Shown here one piece after another: positions 9,965-17,144 of a stretch of DNA of 34,103 nucleotides (within the stretch, counting starts at the first letter, position 1; each line of letters opens with the position of its first letter). A program made the translations under genes and the position numbers. The notes beneath the pieces were generated by a model that was not told where the DNA came from, did not search any database, and worked only from the letters and a program-made list of their open reading frames with translations. This stretch comes from Thiomargarita sp. (lineage in GTDB: Bacteria; Pseudomonadota; Gammaproteobacteria; Beggiatoales; Beggiatoaceae), in assembly GCA_020721045.1 (NCBI GenBank), contig DYNN01000021.1, positions 1 through 34,103 on the forward strand. Reading direction: 5' to 3'.

Positions 9965-11443
9965 CTAATTGATTGTATGCAAAAATAATTCAGATATAAC
10001 TTTAGGAATAAAATTATATTGTTCTAGTGATATACTCTCTATTTCTGCGCATATTTTCACTACATCCAATGATTGCGCATGTTCCGCGATTGGTGCACTA
10101 AAAGCTTGTTTAAGTGCTTCAATTAATACAATATCTGTTTCTGAGAAATGGTGTGGAGTGTGTCCATTATCAATGCAACCTAAATAAATCAATTGTTCCG
10201 CAGAATCCAGACCGATATTATCTAAACTCAAATTAAATTCAGGCGAATAATTCGCAGCTTGTTGCTGGGCGTGAACATAATATTGCGCACAAGCCAACAC
10301 TTCTGTCGCTAATTGATGCATATCCGTGCGTTGTAAGGCTTGCTGCAATTTATCTGTTAGTGTTGGTACTTTATGTAAAATTTGCCATAAACGCCATTGT
10401 TGTTCATCTTGAGCTAAGGCAACGCAACGCTGCTCTGATAAAAATGGGCTACATTGCAAATGTAATTTAATATATGTTCTTAAGGCAGCACGTGCGACTG
10501 TTGGATTTGTGTAATACCAATCCGCTTTAGAAAAACAACGCCAACCATTATTAGAATCAATAATCCATGTTTTATCGTATTTTAAATGCGGTTTTAACTG
10601 ATTTTTTAACAACGCCACCAACATTTTTTTCCCTAACAATGGGGGCCAAAGCCATTGTGGTGCAGTGCTTTCGTCCGGTAATTGCGGTAAATGGATTATC
10701 GTTGATTCTTCATTTTCTGCCGACAAAGCGATCTCTGTAGAAAGCAAAGCGGTTTCTGTTGATAAAGTATTATCTGGTAGTGTTTTAATTTCAACTGTAT
10801 TTTTTAATTGTGCAAGTAGTGATTCACCATCAACAATTTCAGCTCTACCAATTGCTAATTTGCCACGTTCCATCAATAAACTAGCACGTTCTGTGGCTAA
10901 ACGCACTGCTAATACAAAGGATTCTCGTATACCTTTACCTAAAGTTGCACTAGTTTCAATGACTTTAACCTCAGGATATTCACTAAATAATGCTTTCAAT
11001 TGCTGCGAAGATAAAGCACCTTTTAAATCTTGCTTATTTGCTTGAATCACGATTTTGACAGTTTCTTCAGCCTGTTGCGCCAACATCTGTTGCGTTTGCC
11101 AAAAATAATCTAAAGTGCTTTGTTCAGTATGCGTTGCGTCAAGCACAAAAATAATCGCATCAGCACTGCGCAACAAAAATTCTCGATGTTCTTTAAGGAT
11201 ATTTTGTCCAGGCACAGTGATGATTTGACAGGAAATACTATGTCCTTTGAAATAACCCCCCGTATAATCTAGCCAATCAAAAAAGATCGTATGACCTTCG
11301 ACTTCTTTTGGCGTATACACTTTTTTGGATTGTCCAAGTATTTTCCCCAAAGAATATAAGCTAGTCGTTTTACCAGATAAAGGTGGTCCGTCGTATACTA
11401 TACGAACAACAATGACTTCACGCTCGTTGTCTATTATTGCCAT
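9965..11443 (-). CDS. MglA-like small GTPase with long C-terminal extension
   Basis: A 492-residue protein. Residues 10-190 form a small Ras/Arf-like GTPase: P-loop GPPLSGKT (19-26), NKQD (136-139) for guanine recognition and ETSA (163-166). The G3 box reads TVPGQ (76-80) instead of DxxGQ, a hallmark of MglA, the GTPase that sets polarity for gliding and type IV pili in Myxococcus and is controlled by the Roadblock protein MglB. The remaining 290 residues are not found in ordinary MglA (about 195 residues) and match no domain I recognise. They contain a Ser/Thr/Glu-rich linker (about 205-250) and then a mainly helical region. A Roadblock protein is encoded at 231-593. The gene stands alone, convergent with malQ and divergent from radA. 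Confidence 0.85.
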   Translation of the reverse strand: MAIIDNEREVIVVRIVYDGPPLSGKTTSLYSLGKILGQSKKVYTPKEVEGHTIFFDWLDYTGGYFKGHSISCQIITVPGQNILKEHREFLLRSADAIIFVLDATHTEQSTLDYFWQTQQMLAQQAEETVKIVIQANKQDLKGALSSQQLKALFSEYPEVKVIETSATLGKGIRESFVLAVRLATERASLLMERGKLAIGRAEIVDGESLLAQLKNTVEIKTLPDNTLSTETALLSTEIALSAENEESTIIHLPQLPDESTAPQWLWPPLLGKKMLVALLKNQLKPHLKYDKTWIIDSNNGWRCFSKADWYYTNPTVARAALRTYIKLHLQCSPFLSEQRCVALAQDEQQWRLWQILHKVPTLTDKLQQALQRTDMHQLATEVLACAQYYVHAQQQAANYSPEFNLSLDNIGLDSAEQLIYLGCIDNGHTPHHFSETDIVLIEALKQAFSAPIAEHAQSLDVVKICAEIESISLEQYNFIPKVISELFLHTIN

Positions 11444-11657: not shown

Positions 11658-13031
11658 ATGGCGCGCAAAAAAACCGCTTACACTTGTCAACGTTGTGGTG
11701 CAATTTCGTCCAAATGGTTAGGACAATGTCCAGATTGTCATGAATGGAATTGTTTAGAAGAAACCATCGTTGAAACCACACCTTCACCACGTCAACAAAG
11801 TCGTTTTACGGGTTACACTGGTACACAAGCCACAGTTTATTCACTAGGCACAGTCACTGCCCAAGAAGAAAGTCGTACACATACAGGCTTAACAGAACTC
11901 GATCGCGTATTAGGCGGTGGCTTAGTCGTTGGTTCTGTGGTATTAATCGGCGGCGATCCGGGTATTGGTAAATCCACGTTATTACTACAAACATTAGCAA
12001 CTCTAAGTGTAGAAAATCTCACTTATTCCCCTTTATACGTCACAGGTGAAGAATCGCCACAACAAGTGAGTTTGCGGGCTTCACGTCTAGGTTTGAATGT
12101 AAGCAATGTCAAACTGCTGACAGAAACTCAAGTTGAACGCATCATAGAACAAGCGCGGATAGAACAACCACACATCATGGTAATCGACTCTATCCAAACA
12201 ATTTACACTGAAATGTTGCAATCAGCCGCAGGTTCTGTGGCACAAGTACGAGAAAGTGCCGCTCAATTAGTCCGTTTTGCCAAACAAACCAATACCACCG
12301 TTTTCTTAGTTGGTCATGTTACCAAAGAAGGCGCATTAGCCGGTCCGCGTGTTTTAGAACACATGGTTGACACCGTTTTGTATTTTGAAGGTGACACCAG
12401 TAGTCGGTTTCGCGTATTGCGCGCATTTAAAAATCGATTTGGTGCAGTCAATGAACTGGGCGTATTTGCCATGACTGATCGCGGATTAAAAGAAGTGAAC
12501 AACCCTTCCGCCATTTTTCTATCAAGACATGAAGAACAAGTTTCCGGTAGTGTCATCATGGTCACACGCGAAGGTAGCCGCCCCTTACTCGTTGAAGTAC
12601 AAGCCTTAGTTGACGAATCACACATGCCCAATCCACGCCGTGTAACCTTAGGTTTAGATCACAATCGTTTAGCCATGCTATTAGCCGTTTTGCATCGTCA
12701 TGGTGGCGTGGTCACTTACGACCAAGATGTCTTCGTCAATGTCGTGGGTGGCGTAAGAATTAATGAAACAGGTGCAGATTTAGCAGTTATTTTGGCAGTT
12801 CTATCCAGCTTACGAAACATCGCTTTACCCAGAGAACTCGTTGTATTTGGAGAAGTGGGACTAGCTGGAGAAATTCGTCCAGTACCCAATGGCGTTGAAC
12901 GTTTAAAAGAAGCGGCTAAACATGGCTTTAAACGGGCTATCGTTCCCAAAGCTAACATGCCTAAAGAAAATATTCCTGAACTTGAAATCATACCCGTCAT
13001 GCGCTTAGTCGACGCTTTGCACAGTATATAA
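11658..13031 (+). CDS. radA: DNA repair protein RadA (Sms)
   Basis: RadA is a RecA-like hexameric helicase that promotes branch migration of recombination intermediates. All family parts are visible in 457 residues: the zinc finger C10-x2-C13 ... C24-x2-C27, Walker A GGDPGIGKST (98-107), Walker B IMVIDSIQ (173-180), the RadA-specific KNRFG motif (258-262), and the C-terminal Lon-like domain that begins near SVIMVTREGSRPLLVEVQALV and includes GEVGLAGEIRPV. The start MARKKTAYTCQRCG matches the usual RadA N-terminus, although no ribosome binding site is seen. It is divergent from the GTPase gene. The ATPase/nuclease pair follows 105 bases later. Confidence 0.97.
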   Translation: MARKKTAYTCQRCGAISSKWLGQCPDCHEWNCLEETIVETTPSPRQQSRFTGYTGTQATVYSLGTVTAQEESRTHTGLTELDRVLGGGLVVGSVVLIGGDPGIGKSTLLLQTLATLSVENLTYSPLYVTGEESPQQVSLRASRLGLNVSNVKLLTETQVERIIEQARIEQPHIMVIDSIQTIYTEMLQSAAGSVAQVRESAAQLVRFAKQTNTTVFLVGHVTKEGALAGPRVLEHMVDTVLYFEGDTSSRFRVLRAFKNRFGAVNELGVFAMTDRGLKEVNNPSAIFLSRHEEQVSGSVIMVTREGSRPLLVEVQALVDESHMPNPRRVTLGLDHNRLAMLLAVLHRHGGVVTYDQDVFVNVVGGVRINETGADLAVILAVLSSLRNIALPRELVVFGEVGLAGEIRPVPNGVERLKEAAKHGFKRAIVPKANMPKENIPELEIIPVMRLVDALHSI

Positions 13032-13136: not shown

Positions 13137-14525
13137 ATGAAAATATTAGTTAAAAATTTAGGTGAATTAAAACAAGCAGAATTTTCATTGGGTGAGATCA
13201 CTATTTTATGTGGCGGAAATAATACGGGCAAAACTTATGCAACTTATGCATTGTTCGGTTTTTTATCCACTTGGCGCAAATTATTTTCTATCAAAATCAG
13301 CAGTAACTACATTAAACAACTACTTGATGAAGGCGTGACCCACATTGATGTGTCAGAATATGTCAAGCAAACAGAACAGATTTTAGCTGAAGGCTGTCGT
13401 GCTTATACACAGGAATTACCCAAAATTTTTGCCGCGTCAGCAGAACGATTTAAAGAAACAGAATTTAAAATTATTTTGGATAACAACGATATACGCGCCA
13501 CTGGCAAATATGATCGTAAAATTCGTTCCGCTAATATTGAGCTTTTTTCACTTTCAAAACAAGAAGGTAACGATGATTTAGTGGTCACATTATTAGTTGA
13601 AAAAACGACAATGAAAATTTCCACTGATGTTATCACTCATTTTATTACCGATGCACTTAAAGATATTCTTTTTGCTTCATTTTTTCCTAAACCGTTTATT
13701 GCAAGTGCAGAAAGGACCGGCGCGGCTATTTTTCGTAAAGAATTAAATTTCGCTCGTAATCGTTTGTTGGAAGAAGTGAGTCAAGTGAACAAAAATATTG
13801 ACCCACTTGAATTATTATTTAAGGAATATCAAGATTATGCTCTGCCAGTAGAGAAGAATGTGGATTTTACACGGCAACTGGAAACGATTGTGAAAGATAA
13901 AAGTTTTATTGCTCAACAGCATTCTGAAATCTTAACGAATTTTGCGGATATCATTGGTGGCGAATATACCGTTACGCGCGATGATGAGCTTTACTATGTG
14001 CCTAAGAATAGTAAAAAAGTGAAACTGACGATGGATGAAAGTTCTAGCGCGGTGCGTTCGTTGTTAGATATTGGATTTTATCTGCGTCATGTTGCCCAGC
14101 GCGGTGATTTATTGATGATTGACGAACCTGAACTCAATTTACATCCAGAAAATCAACGACGTGTTGCTCGCCTATTTGCACGTTTGGCGAATTTGGAGAT
14201 TAAAGTTTTCATTACAACGCACAGCGATTATATTATCAAAGAATTAAATACGTTAATGATGTTGAACCATGATAAACCGCATTTAAAACGTATTGCAGAA
14301 GACGAAGGTTATCAATCCAAAGAACTTATTTCAGCGGCTAAAATCAAAGTGTATATTGCTGAAAAAGCACTCATTCAATTGGAGGGTGGGCAACGCAAAA
14401 CTCAGTGTCAAACCCTTGTTGCTGCTGATATTGATCCCGAACTGGGTATTGAAGCACGTAGCTTTGATGAAACTATTGACAAAATGAATCAAATTCAGCA
14501 AGACATTGTATGGGGAGGAGATTAG
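13137..14525 (+). CDS. AAA (OLD/AAA_15-type) ATPase of a two-gene module
   Basis: An ABC/SMC-like ATPase of 462 residues from the preferred ATG at 13137. In-frame ATGs at 13125 and 13038 would lengthen it, but homologues typically begin with a strand like KILVKNLGELKQAEF immediately before Walker A. Visible motifs are Walker A GGNNTGKT (26-33), a signature-like ESSSAVRSL, Walker B LLMIDEPELNLHPE with D329/E330, and the switch His in FITTHSDYI (H362). The middle (about 60-290) is helical, without a recognised insert. The last 50 residues (VYIAEKALIQ ... FDETIDKMNQIQQDI) may contact the partner. Its stop overlaps the GTG start of the nuclease-like gene. Such ATPases often drive anti-phage nucleases; the role here is inferred. 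Confidence 0.8.
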   Translation: MKILVKNLGELKQAEFSLGEITILCGGNNTGKTYATYALFGFLSTWRKLFSIKISSNYIKQLLDEGVTHIDVSEYVKQTEQILAEGCRAYTQELPKIFAASAERFKETEFKIILDNNDIRATGKYDRKIRSANIELFSLSKQEGNDDLVVTLLVEKTTMKISTDVITHFITDALKDILFASFFPKPFIASAERTGAAIFRKELNFARNRLLEEVSQVNKNIDPLELLFKEYQDYALPVEKNVDFTRQLETIVKDKSFIAQQHSEILTNFADIIGGEYTVTRDDELYYVPKNSKKVKLTMDESSSAVRSLLDIGFYLRHVAQRGDLLMIDEPELNLHPENQRRVARLFARLANLEIKVFITTHSDYIIKELNTLMMLNHDKPHLKRIAEDEGYQSKELISAAKIKVYIAEKALIQLEGGQRKTQCQTLVAADIDPELGIEARSFDETIDKMNQIQQDIVWGGD

Positions 14526-15106
14526 TGCCAAATTCTGATAAAAATGACATTGATATTCTGAAAGAAATATTGAAAGAACAAATTCTTGTCCCATTAGAAG
14601 ATCGTTATAACAAAAAACAGGTAGCATTGACTGAAGCCGACAATTATACTGTTAAAATTCAAGGGATACCTGATAACACTGTTGTTATAAAATCAGATGC
14701 TTTTCCTCCACCCAAAGCAGTATTTTCCAATTCCAAAGGTGAGTGCAAACGGGCTGACTTCGTTATTGTGGCAGACATGGGCAAAAAGAAATTTCTCATA
14801 TACATTGAGATGAAAGCACAACCAAGGACTAGCCAAAACTTTGAAGTTATTCAGCAATTTAAGGGGGCACAATGCTTTATCAGCTATTGCCAAGCCATCG
14901 GTAAATTGTTTTGGGAACAAAAAGAATTCTTGGACGGTTATGAATGTCGTTTTGTCAAAATTGTAACTAAAAGCAAGAGGATTGATAAACAAAGCAGTCG
15001 CCCTAACAATTCAACAGTTCACGATCGCCCCGATCAAATGCTAACGATCAAAAGTACTGATCATTTGCAATTTAATCAGTTAATTGGTAAACCAGCTAAT
15101 GTGTAG
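14525..15106 (+). CDS. PD-(D/E)XK nuclease-like partner of the AAA ATPase
   Basis: A 193-residue protein. I start it at GTG 14525 rather than at the ATG 15 bases upstream. GGGAGGAG (14513-14520) gives an excellent ribosome binding site for the GTG, and TAGTG couples it to the ATPase stop. Residues 76-97 hold ADFVIVAD, a short basic turn, then LIYIEMKA, that is D78 ... E95-x-K97, the metal-binding core of the PD-(D/E)XK nuclease fold. A helix with Q111 in QQFKGAQCFISY follows, as is usual after ExK. The C-terminal third is basic (VTKSKRIDKQSSR), consistent with nucleic-acid binding. I do not recognise a named family. With the ATPase it forms a candidate ATP-gated nuclease system. Confidence 0.68.
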   Translation: MPNSDKNDIDILKEILKEQILVPLEDRYNKKQVALTEADNYTVKIQGIPDNTVVIKSDAFPPPKAVFSNSKGECKRADFVIVADMGKKKFLIYIEMKAQPRTSQNFEVIQQFKGAQCFISYCQAIGKLFWEQKEFLDGYECRFVKIVTKSKRIDKQSSRPNNSTVHDRPDQMLTIKSTDHLQFNQLIGKPANV

Positions 15107-15120
15107 GATGCAGCGCATCC
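15106..15120. repeat. short perfect palindromic hairpin
   Basis: GGATGC-AGC-GCATCC overlaps the last base of the nuclease-like gene. It has no T run after it, so it is a weak candidate for an intrinsic terminator. It could instead be part of a dispersed palindromic element or an mRNA 3'-end stabiliser. Confidence 0.5.
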
Positions 15121-15145
15121 GACGAAAGAAATACGATCTACCTGA

Positions 15146-15175
15146 TTGATACTACAGGTAAATTTTTGTTAAAAT
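15146..15175 (+). promoter_or_regulatory. probable sigma70 promoter of the HlyD-family gene
   Basis: TTGATA (15146-15151) and TAAAAT (15170-15175) with an 18-base spacer lie 32 bases before the ATG of the membrane fusion gene. This suggests that the fusion-protein gene is transcribed separately from the ATPase/nuclease pair. Confidence 0.5.
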
Positions 15176-15207: not shown

Positions 15208-16497
15208 ATGCGCGAATATCAACATCTATTAAACGTCAACTCTACAGCCTCAAGTCACCTGATTTTATGGATGACCCTGCTATTTTTCATCGTTGCGGGT
15301 TGGTGGGCAAGCTACACCACTTTAGACGAAGTTACCCGTGGCACTGGTAAAGTCATTCCCTCACGCCACGTCCAAGTGGTACAAAATTTAGAAGGCGGTA
15401 TTGTCAGCGAAATTTTGGCTAAAGAAGGTGATGTCGTTGAAAAAGAACAGATTTTATTGCGTATTGATGACACTCGCTTTGCTTCTTCTTATCGAGAAAG
15501 TCAGCTAAAAGAAATTGATTTAAAAGCTAAAATTTCCAGACTAACTGCCGAAGTTGAAGGTAAAGATTTAAGAATTCCTAACAAACTTTCAGCGGCAGAC
15601 AGGCAAGTATTTAGTAATGAAGAAGATTTACTACGCTCACGTCGACGTGAAATGCAAAGCGGCATTGACGTGATTACGCAACAAAAAGCACAGAAAGAAC
15701 ATGAAATCAATGAATTAGCTTCTCAACGCGCACAATTTAAAAATGGTTATGACTTAGCCAACAAAGAATTAAAAATTACCGAACCATTGGTTAAGCGCGG
15801 CGTGATGTCTGAAGTTGATTTATTGCGTTTACAACGTGAAGCGGTTGAATTAAAAGGAAAATTAGACAGTACTTATGACGGAACTAAACGTGCAAAATCA
15901 GCATTAGCAGAATTAGATCGTAAAATTGAAGAATTACGCGCTTCTTTTCGTACCCGCGCACTGACAGAATTAAATGATGTTAAAGCAGAACTTTCTCGAA
16001 TTGGTGAATCGAATTTAGCACTAAAAGATCGTGTAGTTCGTACTGCTGTCCGTTCACCGGTCAAAGGCACAATTAAGCAAATAAAAGTCACTACAGTCGG
16101 TGGTGTGGTACAACCGGGAATGGATTTAGTTGAAATTGTTCCCTTAGAAGACACTTTGCTTATAGAAGCACAAATACGCCCTGCCGACATCGCATTTTTA
16201 CGCGCTGGACAAGCCGCAACAGTCAAATTTACCGCTTATGATTTTTCCATTTTTGGTGGTTTATCCGCACGTTTAGAACGTATCAGTGCGGACACTATTA
16301 TTAATGAACGCGGTGAATCATTTTTTTCTATCGCAGTACGCACTGACCGCAACTACTTAGGCTCATCTTCTGAACCTTTACCCATTATACCGGGCATGAT
16401 TGTATCCGTAGATATTTTAACTGGCAAAAAAACACTGTTAGATTATCTACTTAAACCTATTAAAAAAGCACAGCACATGGCATTACGGGAAAGGTAA
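15208..16497 (+). CDS. HlyD-family type I secretion membrane fusion protein
   Basis: A 429-residue periplasmic adaptor that would link an inner-membrane ABC exporter to a TolC-like outer-membrane channel. The N-terminus is cytosolic and short, followed by one transmembrane segment (about residues 17-36). The first half of the lipoyl domain is GKVIPSRHVQVVQNLEGGIVSEILAKEGDVVEKEQILLRID. Long coiled-coil hairpin helices follow (about 95-275). The second lipoyl half is VRSPVKGTIKQIKVTTVGGVVQPGMDLVEIVP. The beta-barrel and C-terminal part ends in IIPGMIVSVDILTGKKTLLDYLLKPI, a typical HlyD/LapC ending. The ABC transporter and secreted substrate are not adjacent, so it is an orphan here. Adhesin or RTX export is possible but not shown. 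Confidence 0.92.
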   Translation: MREYQHLLNVNSTASSHLILWMTLLFFIVAGWWASYTTLDEVTRGTGKVIPSRHVQVVQNLEGGIVSEILAKEGDVVEKEQILLRIDDTRFASSYRESQLKEIDLKAKISRLTAEVEGKDLRIPNKLSAADRQVFSNEEDLLRSRRREMQSGIDVITQQKAQKEHEINELASQRAQFKNGYDLANKELKITEPLVKRGVMSEVDLLRLQREAVELKGKLDSTYDGTKRAKSALAELDRKIEELRASFRTRALTELNDVKAELSRIGESNLALKDRVVRTAVRSPVKGTIKQIKVTTVGGVVQPGMDLVEIVPLEDTLLIEAQIRPADIAFLRAGQAATVKFTAYDFSIFGGLSARLERISADTIINERGESFFSIAVRTDRNYLGSSSEPLPIIPGMIVSVDILTGKKTLLDYLLKPIKKAQHMALRER

Positions 16498-16574: not shown

Positions 16575-17144
16575 ATGTCTATTATTGCAGCAAAAATTCA
16601 AGATGATAAAATTATCATTGGTGCAGATACACAAACTACCCGCGGTGGTTATCTTAAATTACTCAATACCCCTAAAAATGGACATGCTAAATTATATTGT
16701 ATTGATGAAATTATTGTGATTGGCGTGGCTGGAGACGCCGCAGTGATTGAATTTTTTAGACGTTTTTTAAAAGATACTAAAAAATTACGGAAAATTGGCT
16801 TTAATGATTCTGATTTTGCTGATTTAATGATGAGCTTTAATGAAAAATTACAAACAGATAGTGATGAAAAATTGAATATAAAACATAATGCCTTTTTATT
16901 TTGTTACAATGGCAAATGTTATCAATTTTCAGCTTGGCATATCTTTGAAGTACAAGAATTTACAGCGATTGGTTCAGGGAGTGAAATTGCGTTTGCAGCA
17001 TATGAAACTCAAAAATTATATGAACTTGAATTCAACATGACAAACATTTTACGCGCAGTTTGTCATATTGATCTTTTTTGCCATGAACCTTTGGTTATTT
17101 ATGAAATGGATAAAAAAACGGGCAAAGTTCAGTTGGTCGAATAG
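16575..17144 (+). CDS. proteasome/HslV-like Ntn hydrolase, stand-alone
   Basis: A 189-residue protein with the proteasome-subunit (Ntn hydrolase) fold. The start MSIIAAKIQDDKIIIGADTQTTRGG resembles the HslV and proteasome beta N-terminus, with Ser2 in the position of the Thr nucleophile once Met is removed. Counting from that Ser, Asp17 in GADTQ matches the catalytic Asp of HslV, and the Lys in GHAKLY (about 38) can fill the Lys33 role. AIGSGSEIAFAAYE corresponds to the conserved GSG turn before the last helices. No HslU, Lon or other unfoldase is nearby. A good AGGAA ribosome binding site (16565-16569) supports the start. Similar small Ntn-like proteins are poorly characterised. The next gene overlaps it by 44 bases. 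Confidence 0.72.
   Translation: MSIIAAKIQDDKIIIGADTQTTRGGYLKLLNTPKNGHAKLYCIDEIIVIGVAGDAAVIEFFRRFLKDTKKLRKIGFNDSDFADLMMSFNEKLQTDSDEKLNIKHNAFLFCYNGKCYQFSAWHIFEVQEFTAIGSGSEIAFAAYETQKLYELEFNMTNILRAVCHIDLFCHEPLVIYEMDKKTGKVQLVE

Follow-up and report, generated by a model that had tools for sequence, protein, structure and literature searches.

The window, i.e., the whole stretch of 34,103 nucleotides of Thiomargarita sp. DNA that was analysed, contains a pair of overlapping genes, and all coordinates, reading frames and named residues given for this pair in an earlier note were found to be correct when the sequence was read again. The locus comprises the following features:

13137 to 14525, forward strand: gene A (PDC-M47A), encoding a 462-residue OLD-type ABC ATPase
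14514 to 14520, forward strand: Shine-Dalgarno-like GGAGGAG, read from the sequence, 4 nt upstream of the gene B GTG and within the 3' end of gene A
14525 to 15106, forward strand: gene B (PDC-M47B), encoding a 193-residue predicted PD-(D/E)XK nuclease, with a GTG start
15104 to 15124, forward strand: short palindrome GGATGC-AGC-GCATCC (its letters at about 15106 to 15120), with 6-bp arms and a 3-nt loop, directly 3' of gene B

The stop codon TAG of gene A (14523-14525) shares one base with the GTG of gene B (14525-14527), an arrangement that had been described before together with the ribosome binding site, and the chosen starts of both genes are backed by homologues, which have the same start sites. 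The gene radA lies upstream on the same strand and ends at 13031, leaving a gap of 105 bp to gene A, in which a sequence scan found no terminator. Downstream, an HlyD-family gene starts at 15208 and is followed by genes for a proteasome-like protein and a NusG_II-domain protein, and then by rpoD and dnaG (the last two judged from translations). The proteasome-like gene, between hlyD and the NusG_II-domain gene (16575-17144), encodes 189 residues with a Pfam proteasome-subunit match of 5e-7. Adjoining radA, the minus strand of 9965-11443 encodes a protein of 492 residues that begins with an Arf/Ras-like GTPase domain (Pfam 2e-10) and whose long C-terminal portion contains no named domain. In the tested part of the window, the genes seen in Pfam scans are ordinary metabolic ones, and none besides the pair is a defence gene; the pair stands by itself amid housekeeping genes, outside any other defence operon. 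Homologues of N6-methyltransferases are encoded on other contigs of the same genome.

It had been suggested that the pair is an inserted cassette, on the basis of its position between radA and hlyD, a separate hlyD promoter and the palindrome. A promoter-like site does lie upstream of hlyD (15146-15175), with 10 of 12 matches, by consensus only. The palindrome exists as well, but not as a sign of insertion: it is present in one copy in the genome, which rules it out as a repeat, and a sequence scan ruled it out as a terminator; it is probably irrelevant. The position itself also loses its value as evidence, since radA and hlyD were not adjacent in any relative examined, and none of the tested neighbour genes of the window was found beside radA or hlyD in relatives. 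Because the two genes are unlinked there, an insertion site could not be shown at the window.

Judged by its motifs and predicted model, gene A is an OLD-type ABC ATPase, as had been proposed. The motif set of the ABC fold is present, namely Walker A GGNNTGKT (residues 26-33), E192/R193, the signature-like S303/S304, Walker B D329/E330 and the H-loop residue H362, and G26, N28, N29, G31, K32, T33, R193, S303, S304, D329, E330 and H362 are invariant in an alignment of 15 sequences. Pfam gives a match to AAA_15 (7e-28) and also one to AAA_21. The nearest folds to the model (pLDDT 79) are the heads of SMC, RecN and Rad50 and the Septu/retron ATPase PtuA, with Z of 12-14 (maximum 14.2). A TOPRIM domain was not matched in gene A or gene B by Pfam at E-values up to 1.

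Conservation and modelling lead us to predict confidently that gene B has a PD-(D/E)XK fold with conserved active-site residues. The candidate active site consists of D78, E95-x-K97 and Q111, the pattern recognised earlier by eye; across 77 gene B sequences, counting rows with a residue at the position, these are conserved in 74/74 (D78), 72/74 (E95), 72/74 (K97) and 73/74 (Q111) cases, i.e., 97-100%. In the model, which was built from 15 homologues (pLDDT 86), strands 79-84 and 89-97 border D78 and bear E95 and K97, and helix 102-129 bears Q111. Foldseek alone gave no significant E-value for gene B. Alignment of the Foldseek candidates with VIA-align yielded mostly PD-(D/E)XK nucleases with a middling best Z of 6.0, the matches including Can2, Card1, HamA, McrC, Bse634I, BsmI, FokI, Hjc, EndoMS and Cap4, so that the fold is supported and no one closest family is picked out. 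The gene B profile had no sequence match in the PDB, Pfam gave nothing above cut-off, and neither HNH nor PtuB was matched in Pfam or PADLOC. A GtgE peptidase identity was considered and rejected: the Pfam value (0.014) and the weak PDB matches were below cut-off and were deemed chance.

We compared both proteins to the PADLOC models. Gene A matched PDC-M47A at 5.5e-237 (785 bits, residues 1-460 on profile positions 1-459 of 461), followed by PD-T4-4_A at 9e-163 (541 bits); gene B matched PDC-M47B at 1.1e-67 (225 bits, residues 7-188 on profile positions 2-184 of 186) and had a weak, partial match to PD-T4-4_B (6.7e-6). On this profile evidence the window pair is an intact copy of PDC-M47, a candidate that is listed in PADLOC and has validated relatives; the gene order is the same, both models are matched near full length, and nothing sets the pair apart. 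The name refers to PADLOC-DB phage defence candidate, multi-gene number 47, which we take to originate from the preprint by Payne et al. about defences that lie inside immune systems. A literature search found no paper naming PDC-M47 and no experiment on any of its members. The earlier note had stated that the effector matches, by eye, none of those of Gabija, PARIS and Septu; the wider idea that it resembles nothing known is not supported: PDC-M47 in PADLOC matches both proteins, the ATPase matches PD-T4-4_A, and such dyads have been published (PMC12137116, PMC12839542). In four distant copies from the same bacterial family (L066, L068, L070 and L076), the top match of gene B is PD-T4-4_B, and two of the four (L066 and L070) have PDC-M47B as the second match; therefore, the two nuclease families appear homologous.

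A first genome scan with gene B alone returned no relative, and a gene A alignment was therefore used to find relatives. The two genes are closely paired: in 76 of the 80 homologous loci, gene B starts between -60 and +150 bases from the end of gene A, and in the other four the contig ends within about 500 bases of gene A. These loci span cyanobacteria, several proteobacterial and desulfobacterial groups, methanogens and other phyla, and include relatives in other Thiotrichaceae (Thiomargarita and Thiotrichaceae S06). Occurrence is patchy, PDC-M47B being found in 7 of 369 genomes of the class. In a maximum-likelihood tree of gene A, the window copy and two Thiotrichaceae copies are sister to a 32-row cyanobacterial clade, the remaining Thiotrichaceae copies are placed elsewhere, and phyla are mixed; this sequence tree is consistent with horizontal transfer, which it does not prove. 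One locus (L061; 8422-8613 and 11107-12432) contains, about 2.5 kb from its full pair, a second, short fragment that matches the gene A start (61% over 64 residues), possibly a remnant of another copy. ATPases resembling gene A (25-32% identity) were also seen on small plasmids (about 4.2-4.8 kb) of Klebsiella and Escherichia, on which gene B had no sequence match.

The pair could be viewed as a DNA-repair accessory tied to radA, given that it closely follows radA in the same orientation, that no terminator was detected in the gap, and that the gene A fold is SMC/RecN-like. However, radA is present in 37 of 40 genomes, whereas A-type genes occur in 15 of 40, at differing places and not next to radA, and we regard a repair role as highly improbable.

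A defence role of the PDC-M47-type pair is well supported by the gene context of its relatives. In one locus (L085), the pair is part of a BREX operon with the order brxA, brxB, brxC, A, B, pglX, two more genes and pglZ, and the same slot between brxC and pglX, or its visible part, is occupied in L130, L132, L133, L136, L138, L139 and L142, i.e., in eight loci with L085. Elsewhere, the pair is flanked by a type III methyltransferase gene and, downstream, a large gene (L097); L093 is arranged likewise, its downstream gene being type III restriction-like; and in L134 the pair comes after type I HsdM/HsdS. Other loci have GajB as a neighbour, with a GajA match within the same neighbour set (L122), HEC-01 and methylase genes (L150) or PDC-S26 (L087), and DISARM genes are among the pooled neighbours. 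For many close relatives, mostly cyanobacterial, and for the window, no recognised defence gene was found among the two nearest neighbours on each side; unlike the relatives inside R-M and BREX operons, the window copy is not embedded in one. The defence role that the earlier note had inferred agrees with these BREX, R-M, Gabija and DISARM neighbourhoods, and none of the three outcomes that the note had named as refuting its reading was seen: occurrence is patchy and non-syntenic with a defence association, the nuclease core is predicted, and D78, E95 and K97 are conserved.

Among characterized systems, PD-T4-4 shares a same-family ATPase, a PD-(D/E)XK second gene and an equal operon layout with the window pair; the difference lies in the weak resemblance of gene B to PD-T4-4_B. 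A functional selection in E. coli uncovered PD-T4-4, which is located in an ICE-like defence locus and is a validated anti-phage system (Vassallo et al. 2022, PMC9519451); a review lists it with a PD-(D/E)XK domain (PMC10952713). The best-studied look-alike is WonAB from the Vibrio WASA-1 prophage, described in 2025, whose authors see links with PD-T4-4 and with operons of the type "OLD-ABC ATPase + novel REase", and cite the Payne et al. preprint for operons organised alike (PMC12137116). Compared through its published description rather than its sequence, WonAB likewise combines an OLD-ABC ATPase with a small PD-(D/E)xK nuclease, although WonB is about 16 kDa and gene B has 193 residues. Experiments have shown that WonAB acts against phage and does so abortively. 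Its defence requires the WonA ATPase and WonB K71, and the required WonA residues are K34, R182, E300 and H333 (PMC12137116), which would correspond to K32, R193, E330 and H362 of gene A. WonB is toxic only with WonA; translation ceases while the genomic DNA remains intact (PMC12137116). OLD-ABC and PD-(D/E)XK dyads in BREX operons have been proposed to be backup effector modules (PMC12839542); the architecture and the idea are those of the window pair, but that paper lumps many dyads without naming PDC-M47, and the window copy lies outside BREX. Gabija, PARIS and Septu also join an OLD-type ATPase to a nuclease effector, and gene A has weak to moderate matches to the AriA, GajA and PtuA models of PADLOC. 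In contrast to the predicted PD-(D/E)XK nuclease of gene B, the effectors of Gabija and PARIS are TOPRIM proteins (GajA, AriB) and that of Septu is the HNH protein PtuB, which gene B did not match in Pfam or PADLOC; Gabija also has the GajB helicase, which is not part of the window pair.

Taken as a whole, the window pair is probably a PDC-M47-type anti-phage system made up of two genes, in which A would serve as sensor and gate, and B as a nuclease that stops phage production, likely via cell shutdown. A would be a dimerising OLD-type ABC ATPase; B, translationally coupled to A and so made at a similar level, would be held by it. Upon detection of an infection cue by A, which in R-M and BREX operons could plausibly be interference with the host system, the ATP cycle of A would license B to cut nucleic acid, and this cutting would stop phage production, most likely by shutting down the cell. 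The analogy with WonAB and PARIS suggests that the two proteins form a complex, that activation is gated by ATP, that the outcome is abortive and that the target is RNA and not DNA, and for PDC-M47 we infer the trigger, the target and the abortive outcome in the same manner. It should be noted that WonAB and PD-T4-4, although related to PDC-M47, belong to other families, so that what is known of their mechanism may not apply to it.

Pairs of an SMC-like ATPase and a nuclease also act in anti-plasmid systems, e.g., Wadjet, and the pair could be directed against plasmids or other mobile elements instead of phages. We consider this improbable: relatives are embedded in BREX and R-M operons, PD-T4-4 and WonAB act against phage, and relatives of A are themselves plasmid-borne.

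The BREX-embedded copies, in operons from unrelated phyla, carry two alleles of gene B, one in L133, L142 and L085 and another in L132, L136 and L139. Between the two sets, A is 90-95% identical and B 47-50% identical at the amino acid level, and only four A positions separate the sets; DNA identity is about 54% at B and returns to 83-91% in pglX (L132, L136). This drop at B, with recovery in pglX and retention of A, suggests that the nuclease appears to have been replaced in place. In addition, gene B is damaged and gene A remains open in four Thiotrichaceae relatives: in L058 (around 11330-11442) the end of A is joined to the final residues of B by an in-frame deletion, an insertion of roughly 0.8 kb lies in B, downstream of A, in L063, and the B frames are split in L065 and L067, where a draft-assembly error is possible. 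Broken B with intact A is as expected if B is costly.

This loss is relevant to direct restriction, under which A would recognise phage DNA (ends, modification or replication intermediates), B would cut it, and the cell would survive. The structural neighbours of gene B include the DNA nucleases Bse634I, BsmI, FokI, McrC and HamA, gene A resembles the DNA-binding ABC heads of Rad50, RecN and UvrA, and seven of 11 putative-DNase systems gave direct immunity (PMC9519451). However, WonAB, the closest system studied in detail, aborts infection with genomic DNA intact (PMC12137116), and the frequent loss of B with A retained suggests a cost; we consider direct restriction unlikely next to the gated, likely abortive nuclease that we favour. 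As a tentative extension of the latter, which we hold to be somewhat doubtful, PDC-M47 might be a portable guard of BREX and of type I and III R-M systems, in which the conserved ATPase would sense that these systems are inhibited and set free a PD-(D/E)XK effector that is interchangeable.

These results give the PDC-M47 candidate support at the levels of fold, conservation and context, and predict the residues to mutate. Beyond the catalogued candidate, the additional interest lies in the effector exchange. In-place nuclease exchange and repeated nuclease-only breakage are clues that the ATPase may be a general sensor or gate, and that the nuclease may be an effector that is costly and exposed to pressure from phage or host.
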